Part shown: in pieces, positions 17,046-23,460 of the stretch
Layout: the number at the start of each line of letters is the position of its first letter
How positions within the stretch are numbered: the stretch's first letter is position 1
Assembly (NCBI GenBank): GCA_019683805.1
Contig: JADGHQ010000024.1
Span: 1 to 33,129, forward strand
Source: Thermoleophilaceae bacterium
GTDB taxonomy: Bacteria; Actinomycetota; Thermoleophilia; Solirubrobacterales; Thermoleophilaceae
DNA length: 33,129 bases
Direction of reading: 5' to 3'
Program-made: the position numbers and the translations under genes
The notes under the pieces: model-generated
What the model saw: only the letters and a program-made list of their open reading frames with translations
The model's database searches: none
What the model was told of the DNA's origin: nothing

Positions 17046-17906
<861 letters not shown>

Positions 17907-20774: not shown

Positions 20775-20780
20775 TACACT
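20775..20780 (+). promoter_or_regulatory. candidate -10 box of the TPP-riboswitch operon
   Basis: TACACT, about 10 bases upstream of the riboswitch 5' side. A transcript starting near 20787 would begin just before the aptamer. No clear -35. Confidence 0.45.
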
Positions 20781-20789
20781 GCGGCCGAG

Positions 20790-20895
20790 ATAGCCAGGGG
20801 GGCTCGCGGGAAAGCGGGCTGAGATAGCGCACTCGACTCTGACGTCGCCCGGCGCTGACCCTTCGAACCTGTGGGGTAATGCCCGCGGAGGGAGC
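20790..20895 (+). ncRNA. TPP riboswitch (THI element)
   Basis: The thiamine pyrophosphate aptamer is recognisable by its conserved blocks in order: GGGGGCTCGC, then GCTGAGATA (pyrimidine-binding arm), a variable stem, GACCCTTCGAACCTG, then GGGTAATGCCCGCGGAGGGA (pyrophosphate arm and 3' end). It lies directly before the ABC transporter genes; the ATG at 20898 is only 4-5 bases beyond the aptamer, and its GGAGGGAG serves as the ribosome site. TPP binding would therefore close the SD and reduce translation. The exact P1 boundary is uncertain by a few bases. Confidence 0.93.
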
Positions 20896-20897
20896 AG

Positions 20898-21707
20898 ATG
20901 AAGACCGACCTCGAGGCTCCCGCGAAGGAGCCTCTTTCTTCGCAGGACACCGCGATCGCCCTGGAGGGCGTGAGCCGCAGCTACCGGTCGAGGCGGGGCC
21001 CGGTGCGGGCGCTTGCGCGCGTCGACCTGCGCGTGCGCGCGCGCGAGGCGCTGGCGCTCGTCGGCCCCTCCGGCTGCGGCAAGTCGACGCTGCTCGAGAT
21101 CGTGGCGGGGCTGCAGGAGCCCGACGAGGGAACGGTGTCGGCGCTCGGCCGCCGCGGCGCGCGCGAGCGGCTCGGCGTCTGCGCCTACATGGCGCAGCGG
21201 GACCTGCTGCTGCCCTGGCGGGACGCGCTCGGCAACGCCGCGCTCGCGCTCGAGGCGCAGGGGGTGGGGCGCCGCGAGGCGCGCCGCCGCGCCGCGCCGC
21301 TGTTCGAGCGCTTCGGGCTCGCCCGCTTCGAGCGCTCGCTGCCCGCCGAGCTGTCGGGCGGCATGCGCCAGCGGGTCGCGTTCCTGCGCACGCTGCTCGC
21401 GGGCCGCGAGGTGCTGCTGCTCGACGAGCCGTTCGCGGCGCTCGACTCGATCACGCGCGGCGAGATGCAGGAGTGGCTCGCGGACGCGCTCGCCGCGGAG
21501 GAACGCACCGCCGTGCTCGTCACGCACGACGTGGAGGAGGCGGTGTACCTCGCCGACCGGGTGGCGGTGCTCTCGCCGCGGCCGGGGAGCGTGGTGGCCG
21601 AGATCGAGGTGCCGCTCCCGCGCCCGCGCGGCCGCCGGCGCGAGGCGATGACGGACCCGGATTTCGCGCGCCTGGTGCGGCGTGCGCTGGAGGCTCTCGA
21701 GCGGTGA
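20898..21707 (+). CDS. thiZ: ABC transporter ATPase, thiamine-precursor uptake (ThiZ-like)
   Basis: Nucleotide-binding subunit of an ABC importer, 269 aa: Walker A GPSGCGKS (56-63), Q-loop Gln100, signature LSGGM (152-156), Walker B VLLLDE with catalytic Glu177, and switch His210 in VTHD. Among ABC ATPases it resembles the nitrate/sulfonate/taurine class. The substrate is inferred from the TPP riboswitch in its leader and the NMT1/THI5-like binding protein two genes on: probably hydroxymethylpyrimidine or its formylaminopyrimidine precursor. The permease GTG overlaps its stop by 4 bases. The gene symbol is by role and context. Confidence 0.9.
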   Translation: MKTDLEAPAKEPLSSQDTAIALEGVSRSYRSRRGPVRALARVDLRVRAREALALVGPSGCGKSTLLEIVAGLQEPDEGTVSALGRRGARERLGVCAYMAQRDLLLPWRDALGNAALALEAQGVGRREARRRAAPLFERFGLARFERSLPAELSGGMRQRVAFLRTLLAGREVLLLDEPFAALDSITRGEMQEWLADALAAEERTAVLVTHDVEEAVYLADRVAVLSPRPGSVVAEIEVPLPRPRGRRREAMTDPDFARLVRRALEALER

Positions 21708-22456
21708 GGCGGTACCTACTCTCCGCGCTCCTGCTCGCGGCGTTCGTCGCCCTCTGGCAGCTCGTGGCGAGCCTGCCCGGCGTGGACGACCTCACGCTCG
21801 CCTCGCCCGCCGAGACCGCGCGCGCCATCGGCCGCGACCGCTCCCTGCTTGCTTCGAACATGTGGGTGACGCTCGAGGAGGTGCTGCTCGGGCTCGCGAT
21901 CGCCGTCGCGCTCGGCGCCGGGAGCGCGATCCTGATGCACCTCTTCCGCCCGCTGCGCGAGGCGGCCTATCCGCTGCTCGTGGCCTCGCAGGCGATCCCC
22001 GTCGTGGTGCTCGCGCCGCTGTTCGTGCTGGCCTTCGACTACGGGATCGGCCCGAAGCTCGCGATCGTCGCGCTGATCTGCTTCTTCCCGGTCACCGTGA
22101 ACGTGCTCGACGGCCTGCGCTCCGTCGAGCCCGAGCTGCTCAAGCTGATGCGGAGCCTGGGGGCCTCGCGCCTCTCGACGCTCGTGCGCGTGGAGCTGCC
22201 CTCCGCCCTGCCGTTCTTCTTCAGCGGCCTGAGGGTGGCGGCTACGGTCTCGGTGATCGGCGCCGTGTTCGGCGAGTGGGCGGGCGCCGACAAGGGGCTC
22301 GGCCGGCTCGTCCTGCTCGGCAACAACCAGCTGCAGACCGCCCGCGTCTACGCGGGCGTAGTGATCCTGACCCTGATCGCGGTGGCGCTGTTCGCGCTCG
22401 TCACGCTGGCCGAGCGCGCCGCCGTGCCCTGGAGACGAGGAGGAACCGCCGGATGA
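21704..22456 (+). CDS. thiX: ABC transporter permease, thiamine-precursor uptake (ThiX-like)
   Basis: A 250-aa membrane protein with about six helices. The GTG start at 21704 overlaps the ATPase stop (GTGA); the protein starts MRRYLLSALLLAAF. The EAA-like coupling loop, which docks on the ATPase, is RSLGASRLSTLVRVELPSA near residue 150. It belongs to the BPD_transp_1 family (SsuC/TauC/ThiX type) and is expected to form a homodimer. Its stop overlaps the next ATG by 4 bases (ATGA), so the three genes form one coupled operon under the riboswitch. Confidence 0.9.
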   Translation: MRRYLLSALLLAAFVALWQLVASLPGVDDLTLASPAETARAIGRDRSLLASNMWVTLEEVLLGLAIAVALGAGSAILMHLFRPLREAAYPLLVASQAIPVVVLAPLFVLAFDYGIGPKLAIVALICFFPVTVNVLDGLRSVEPELLKLMRSLGASRLSTLVRVELPSALPFFFSGLRVAATVSVIGAVFGEWAGADKGLGRLVLLGNNQLQTARVYAGVVILTLIAVALFALVTLAERAAVPWRRGGTAG

Positions 22457-23460
22457 GGAGACGCCTGACCGCGCTCGTAGCGATCGCCCTCGTGGCGACG
22501 GCGACGGGCTGCGGCGAGAAGCAGGAGGAGCTGAAGCCCGGGACGACCGTGCCGTTCGAGCTGATGCTCGACTTCTTCCCGAACGCCGACCACGCGGGCA
22601 TCTACGCGGCGAAGGCGGCCGGCCTCTTCCGGCAGGCCGGCCTCGACCTGAAGATCCGCACGCCGTCCGATCCGGCCGCGCCGATCAGGCAGGTCGCGGC
22701 CGGGCGGGTGGACCTCGCGATCTCGTACGAGCCGGAGCTCCTGCGGGCGCGCGACCAGGGGCTGCGCGTGGTGGCCGTGGCCGCGCTCGTGCGCACGCCG
22801 CTGACGACGATCATCTCGCTGCCGAGGGCGGGGATCTCGAAGCCCTCCGACCTCGCCGGCAAGACGGTCGGCACCGCCGGGATCGACTACCAGTCCGCGT
22901 ACCTCGAGACGATCCTGCGCAAGGCCGGCGTGCCGCGCTCGCGCGTGAAGGAGCGCAACGTGGGCTTCGACCTCGTGCCCGCGCTCGCGACCGGCAAGGT
23001 GGACGCGATCCTCGGCGGCTACTGGAACTACGAGGGCGAGCAGCTCAGGCTCGCGCACCGGCGCCCGCGGATCATCAAGCTCGACCAGGCGGGCGTCCCG
23101 AGCTACGACGAGCTCGTGCTCGTGGCGAGCCAGGACGCGCTCGAGCGCCGCGGCGACGCGATCCGCGCCTTCATCGGCGCGCTGGCGCGCGGCACGCACC
23201 TGCTCGACCGCGACCCGGCTGAGGGGATCCAGGGGCTCCTGCGCGCGAACAGGGAGCTCGACCCCAGGCTGCAGCGGGCGTCGGTGAAGGTCACGCTCCC
23301 CTACCTCCTGCCCCCGCGCGGCAAGCCGTTCGGCTACATGGACCCCGAGCGCTGGCGGGCGTTCGCCGCCTGGATGCACGCGGGCGGCATCCTCCGCGAC
23401 GCGGCGAGCGCCGAGGGGGCGCTGACCGATGACTACCTGCCGGGCAAGGGGCCGAGCTAG
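22453..23460 (+). CDS. thiY: substrate-binding lipoprotein, NMT1/THI5-like (ThiY-like)
   Basis: Binding protein of the importer, 335 aa. A signal peptide (1-19) ends at a lipobox with Cys20 (ATATGC), so it is anchored to the outer face of the membrane. The mature protein has the NMT1/THI5-like fold: DFFPNADHAGIYAA (pyrimidine-binding signature), AAGRVDLAISYEPELL, LAGKTVGTAGIDYQSAY, ATGKVDAILGGYWNYEG. This family binds HMP or formylaminopyrimidine. It is translated by coupling with the permease. The hairpin at 23462-23482 follows. Confidence 0.92.
   Translation: MRRRLTALVAIALVATATGCGEKQEELKPGTTVPFELMLDFFPNADHAGIYAAKAAGLFRQAGLDLKIRTPSDPAAPIRQVAAGRVDLAISYEPELLRARDQGLRVVAVAALVRTPLTTIISLPRAGISKPSDLAGKTVGTAGIDYQSAYLETILRKAGVPRSRVKERNVGFDLVPALATGKVDAILGGYWNYEGEQLRLAHRRPRIIKLDQAGVPSYDELVLVASQDALERRGDAIRAFIGALARGTHLLDRDPAEGIQGLLRANRELDPRLQRASVKVTLPYLLPPRGKPFGYMDPERWRAFAAWMHAGGILRDAASAEGALTDDYLPGKGPS

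Follow-up and report, generated by a model that had tools for sequence, protein, structure and literature searches.

Ribosome-binding sites located inside thiamine pyrophosphate (TPP) riboswitch aptamers have been described, mostly from Actinobacteria and Cyanobacteria (Barrick and Breaker 2007, PMC2258182). In Escherichia coli, terminators can also work efficiently when they lie within the first 100 bp of a coding region (Li et al. 2015, PMC4824070); hence, ribosomes may be unable to override a terminator that comes so early. We analyzed a stretch of 33,129 nucleotides of a Thermoleophilaceae bacterium (contig JADGHQ010000024.1, hereafter the window), in which a TPP aptamer (THI element, 20786..20893) fills the 5' leader of a three-gene importer operon, and the first gene of this operon, coding for the ATPase, carries a terminator-like hairpin in its early codons. 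All features of the leader and the operon are on the plus strand. The best overall explanation, to which we give an even chance of being right, is that a TPP OFF-switch would govern the import of a pyrimidine precursor of thiamine, in the simplest case hydroxymethylpyrimidine (HMP), with a terminator inside the gene. The parts supported by comparison are the aptamer, the operon, the lack of a detectable thiC, the position of the Shine-Dalgarno sequence and the hairpin as an RNA element.

The hairpin (GAGGCTCC-CGCGAA-GGAGCCTC, 20913..20934) starts at position +16 of the ATPase gene and spans codons 6 to 13, with 8 pairs, a 6-base loop and a T-rich tail (TTTCTTCG, 20935..20942) after it. It matches the pattern of an intrinsic terminator (8 pairs, 6 of them G-C, loop of 6, at least 5 T in 8 bases) and is the only terminator-like site between 20650 and 21100, where shuffled sequences gave 0.0. 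We compared it in a panel of 61 genomes of relatives. The leader set comprised 45 importer-associated aptamers, that of the window and 44 further panel matches (in G042, the aptamer and the importer are at the ends of contigs that, by eye, seem to overlap), and the 38 of them with an open reading frame (ORF) of more than 200 residues behind the aptamer are the basis of all gene-start counts. At least 7 of the 8 pairs are formed in 17/38 ORFs, corresponding to 11/18 in family f1 and 6/20 in the other three families. In the 38-sequence alignment, 73.3% of the cells are paired (at most 48.0% when the hairpin is slid along it), the covariation score is 0.242 (at most 0.145 when slid), and two-sided changes are found in 25 cells versus 12.1 +/- 2.8 in shuffled alignments. 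Relatives are also enriched in T after the stem, with 46 T over 9 bases in each of 11 f1 genomes (13.9 +/- 3.1 expected, p 5e-5) and 17 T over 9 bases in each of 6 f2/f3 genomes (7.9 +/- 2.3 expected, p 5e-4), the T being totals over the genomes. This comparison argues for a hairpin at the RNA level.

Upstream of the aptamer, there is a predicted -10 box (TACACT, 20775..20780). The motif TANNNT is conserved at this place, being found 18 to 40 bases 5' of the aptamer GGGG in 44/45 leaders, versus 4.1 on average and never more than 12 in shuffled upstream sequences. Given its position, transcription should start 5 to 10 bases past the box, at the edge of the aptamer. At the other end, GGAGGGA (20887..20893) belongs to the 3' strand of the aptamer (P4 and beyond) and is at the same time the Shine-Dalgarno sequence, followed by GCAG and the ATG at 20898-20900, i.e., with a spacing of 4 bases. 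The first-pass annotation had already placed the ribosome site inside the aptamer, an arrangement described before for Actinobacteria (PMC2258182), and the relatives bear it out, since the start codon lies 0 to 5 bases past AGGGA/AGGAA in 34/38 ORFs. The base 5' of this motif is G in 25/38 and A in 13/38, never the consensus U, and the G cases produce GGAGG. A Shine-Dalgarno sequence in the aptamer core, near the start codon, is what characterizes direct translation attenuation.

The Shine-Dalgarno end of the aptamer and the hairpin are linked by complementarity. GGGAGC (20890..20895), a possible antiterminator strand, is complementary to GCTCCC (20916-20921, codons 7 and 8) in the 5' arm of the hairpin, and in 16/17 hairpin-bearing leaders both strands can form 5 or more consecutive pairs. 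The minimum-energy fold of 20786-20950 takes this pairing instead of the terminator. The layout is thus possibly that of a terminator and an antiterminator with the aptamer 3' strand as the pivot. Transcription would start at the 5' end of the aptamer, leaving a leader that is little more than the aptamer itself. With TPP bound, the AGGGA strand would be held in P4 and the junction, and the ribosome could not load; the GCTCCC arm would be left to form the hairpin, which, followed by its T-rich tail, would halt transcription some 45 bases past the start of the ATPase gene. When no TPP is bound, the Shine-Dalgarno strand would be open to the ribosome, or its brief pairing with GCTCCC would delay the terminator, and the operon would be expressed. 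Such an expression platform would lie inside the coding sequence, with one strand serving as ligand fold, Shine-Dalgarno sequence and antiterminator, codons 6 to 13 as terminator, and two OFF outputs. We propose it tentatively, considering it somewhat more apt to be wrong than right. The direct action on translation suggested by the first-pass annotation is retained here, but that account missed the hairpin, which may be a second output.

Several results weigh against a terminator controlled in this way. The hairpin is not universal, with fewer than 7 of the 8 pairs in 21/38 ORFs, and its folding energy relative to synonymous recoding is weak (p < 0.05 in 7/38, mean z -0.74). The number of pairs with a two-sided change (5) is not above that of shuffled alignments (372/500 reach 5), and the aligned sequences are related, which means that the covarying cells cannot be counted as independent. 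Early hairpins were not in excess in 83 ORFs behind other TPP aptamers, a few of them from this clade, where a hairpin score of at least 16 is reached early in 22.9% versus 29.0% elsewhere in the ORFs. Changed stems of the GCGCC type (G025, G029, G031, G034, G037, and G054) pair with the Shine-Dalgarno strand in runs of only 3 to 4; hence, this strand did not follow the drift of the stem, which appears to be more conserved than the antiterminator half. Finally, unless transient, the GGGAGC/GCTCCC pairing would itself hide the Shine-Dalgarno sequence in the ON state.

Nearly as likely as the terminator, and to be held just as tentatively, is direct translational control alone, where the hairpin at +16 would tune initiation or mRNA stability without terminating transcription. 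Direct translation attenuation is the mode described for actinobacterial TPP switches (PMC2258182), the wider conservation of the stem fits it, and some stems lack a T-rich tail (1 T in G016, 2 T in G001, and 0 T in G044). Against it are the strong enrichment of T in the tail in f1, at a site that fits the terminator pattern, and the complementarity of the 5' arm to the Shine-Dalgarno strand in nearly all hairpin-bearing leaders.

As for the aptamer itself, a covariance search gave a match to RF00059 at 20786-20910 with 48.2 bits (E 1.8e-8 in a 501-base stretch), in agreement with the THI box recognized by the first-pass annotation, though below the Rfam gathering score of 54.3; a scan of the window at gathering level does not include it, and many importer aptamers of this clade do not reach that score. 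The first-pass annotation had considered all the aptamer blocks visible, and this is true of the core motifs, as the RF00059 alignment shows the UGAGA loop, GAACCUG, the CG in J5/4, and the UNR loop of P5. By our own alignment, G60, C77, and G78 are presumably retained too. These are conserved bases on the pyrophosphate side of the TPP riboswitch (PMC3764141). It is not true of the P1 helix, in which 3 of the 5 pairs are non-standard, leaving no convincing P1. Across the 45 aptamers, P1 has a mean of 2.04 pairs out of 5 versus 1.86 +/- 0.11 when shuffled, and 5.1% of the shuffles reach this mean. P1 is not supported here, but it is the variable switching helix; hence, membership in RF00059 is judged on the core. 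TPP matches were found in 59/61 panel genomes and, together with the recurring operon order, this makes the observation more than chance. The element is most probably a TPP riboswitch, and would be expected to bind TPP.

The junction J4/5 of the window aptamer is two bases short of the consensus. A pattern scan of the genome contigs gave at least 119 matches, a few of which look like chance; among the matches listed, the junction has 7 letters in 78/119 and 6 letters in 40/119. The importer aptamers have 6 or 7 letters between CCTG and P5 before AAT in 44/45 cases, the other being G052, with 8, whose operon has the binding protein first and a gene order different from that of the other importer operons. 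The same genomes have 7 aptamers elsewhere that likewise show eight letters. A P4/P5 junction one or two bases under the Rfam consensus is widespread in Firmicutes and Actinobacteria (L059-L101 and L119-L237). An altered ligand, accommodated by a changed pyrophosphate pocket, was considered and dropped, since the same shortening is found in Bacillus, Mycobacterium, Listeria, and many others, and so widespread a trait cannot be taken as the sign of a new ligand.

The operon behind the aptamer codes for a ThiZ-type ABC ATPase (20898..21707; PF00005, ABC_tran, 1.5e-26), a ThiX-type permease with a GTG start (21704..22456; PF00528, BPD_transp_1, 1.2e-31), and a ThiY-type lipoprotein binding protein (22453..23460; PF09084, NMT1/THI5-like, 3.4e-58). 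These Pfam matches and the 4-base overlaps at the two gene junctions (GTGA between ATPase and permease, ATGA between permease and lipoprotein) corroborate the ATPase-permease-lipoprotein operon of the first-pass annotation. The order aptamer-ATPase-permease-ThiY is repeated in most of the 61 panel genomes, 57 of which have a ThiY match at E < 1e-72. No NCBIfam model scored over its cut-off. The closest solved structure to the lipoprotein is 3ix1, the formylaminopyrimidine-binding ThiY (E 6.3e-50), followed by 4nmy (4.5e-18). The protein was also considered as a THI5 HMP-P synthase and rejected, given that it lacks CCCFC, which we take to be the motif of that enzyme, and, like ThiY, has SYDEL-type residues where the motif would align. 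The genome codes for two more binding proteins of NMT1 type (G000:C99:995-1897 and G000:C97:70-1041), 38% and 25% identical to that of the window.

The cargo of this importer can be predicted from the thiamine genes of the genome, an assembly of 2.56 Mb in 134 contigs that is about 95% complete. No thiamine gene was found among the Pfam matches of 20 further reading frames of the window, chosen from 71. This agrees with the first-pass annotation, which had seen no thiamine biosynthesis gene here, although the picture was incomplete, as thiO, thiG, thiE, thiD, and thiL are present elsewhere in the genome. Among the genes that it had singled out for a genome-wide look, thiD and thiE were thus recovered, and no thiC turned up in a search of the genome where 13/14 controls were positive. 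The thiD match (259.7 bits) reaches the end of its contig, and its first residues were matched on another. The only other TPP aptamer of the genome (54.1 bits) belongs to a locus on contig C62 (L003, 10121-13107), where it sits between thiE on the minus strand and the divergent thiO and thiG on the plus strand, these two with a frame between them that by eye is thiS-like; unlike that of the window, its Shine-Dalgarno-like AAGGAG is downstream of the aptamer. In the panel, thiC is found in 12/61 genomes, over the cut-off in 11; among the genomes with a completeness of 90% or more and a contamination of 5% or less, it is found in 7/39 and not in the other 32, all absences being called on draft genomes. 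TenA (TIGR04306), present in 12/61 panel genomes, was not found in this genome either, and a weak PF03070 match, examined as a TenA candidate, was rejected as closest to the CADD family. Neither thiC nor TenA was found in 39/61 panel genomes, that of the window included.

Judging from this gene content, the bacterium appears to be a pyrimidine auxotroph, with thiazole synthesis kept and pyrimidine synthesis lost; since the thiazole genes are kept and thiC was not found, the importer is likely the source of pyrimidine (e.g., HMP). HMP would be the simplest cargo, as it is usable by ThiD, while formylaminopyrimidine would need an unknown enzyme in a genome where no TenA was found. Of the salvage of HMP or its precursors, proposed by the first-pass annotation, the general idea is favored by the lack of a detectable thiC and the closeness of the binding protein to ThiY, but a TenA route for formyl or amino pyrimidines is not. 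It is doubtful, though far from negligible, that the importer carries thiamine, formylaminopyrimidine, or another compound instead, with HMP-P supplied by an unknown enzyme or by a thiC located in sequence that the assembly lacks. The closest solved homolog does bind formylaminopyrimidine, and the genome is fragmented and incomplete; however, the nearest thing to TenA here is the CADD-like match, and a thiC that was merely missed fits poorly with its not being found in 49/61 panel genomes, nor in 32/39 of those of good quality.

Returning to the hairpin, we consider it very unlikely that the peptide EAPxxEP, and not the nucleic acid, explains the conserved stretch. A similar peptide is encoded in many genomes, and the weak folding-energy test would be consistent with it. 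However, the Ala codon of the 5' arm is GCT in 21/28 Ala-bearing cases versus 37/1088 Ala codons in the remainder of these ORFs, its wobble base and the second base of the Glu/Ala codon across the stem covary (U-A 20, G-C 8, C-G 1, and U-G 1), and the codons that come next are T-rich Leu/Ser codons. Still less credible is a role of the repeat as an operator in the DNA, bound by a protein regulator. The 8-base inverted repeat is perfect around its 6-base center, as would suit an operator, but it lies in codons 6 to 13 behind an RNA switch, is mostly fixed at +16, is flanked by a T-rich tail on a single side, and could not be made out by eye in the six ThiXYZ operons that have no upstream TPP match (G003, G017, G024, G041, G058, and G059). 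The lack of such a hairpin at the gene start of these operons, along with the lack of an excess behind other TPP aptamers, makes the RNA hairpin look specific to this importer in this clade. Among these six operons (L107, L108, L109, L111, L112, and L114), thiC is over the cut-off in the genomes G003, G017, G024, and G058, with a partial match in G041, as if control or need differed where pyrimidine synthesis is kept.

On the 5' side of the riboswitch, the window contains a small cupin protein (PF07883, 20351-20743) and, before it, a VWA CoxE-like gene (PF05762, 18913-20334) that adjoins a reading frame of AAA type. In G003, G017, G024, and G058, ThiXYZ seems to be directly preceded by the same CoxE-like gene. 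Farther upstream, a minus-strand gene (17049-17906) with ACT and formyl transferase domains is presumably a PurU-type formyl-THF deformylase.

A Shine-Dalgarno sequence in a TPP aptamer, direct control of the ribosome site, ThiXYZ, and a short P4/P5 junction are all of known kinds. The new part would be the in-gene terminator-like hairpin tied to the switch strand; judged by titles and abstracts in the open-licence literature, searches on terminators in coding regions under riboswitches and on thiamine auxotrophy in Solirubrobacterales or Thermoleophilia gave no description of it. If true, riboswitch expression platforms would extend into the reading frame, and the choice of amino acids would be partly set by RNA function. 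Solirubrobacterales, the order including loci L179 and L200 with this operon, would be mostly dependent on the thiamine pyrimidine of their neighbors, by prediction.

Compared with known systems, the locus has the NMT1-type binding protein, ATPase, and permease of ThiXYZ with ThiY (3ix1, a binding protein of N-formyl-4-amino-5-aminomethyl-2-methylpyrimidine), but in a genome without detectable TenA or thiC, and its cargo is predicted. It shares with the direct-attenuation TPP riboswitches (PMC2258182) the purine-rich 3' end of the aptamer as ribosome site and the occurrence in Actinobacteria, and differs in the conserved terminator-like hairpin in the ORF and in the lack of a detectable P1. 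In the thiC riboswitch of Corynebacterium glutamicum, the mapped 5' untranslated region (1,373,210-1,373,105) likewise nearly coincides with the aptamer (1,373,213-1,373,103), but the gene governed is thiC and not an importer, and the available part of that report mentions no in-gene hairpin (PMC3890552). In the thiM, thiC, and tbpA switches of E. coli, TPP lowers both translation and the mRNA level, as it would do here; these are Rho-dependent, whereas the window has a site resembling an intrinsic terminator, and a further likeness is that early codons may matter for the mRNA level in thiM and tbpA (PMC11487190).

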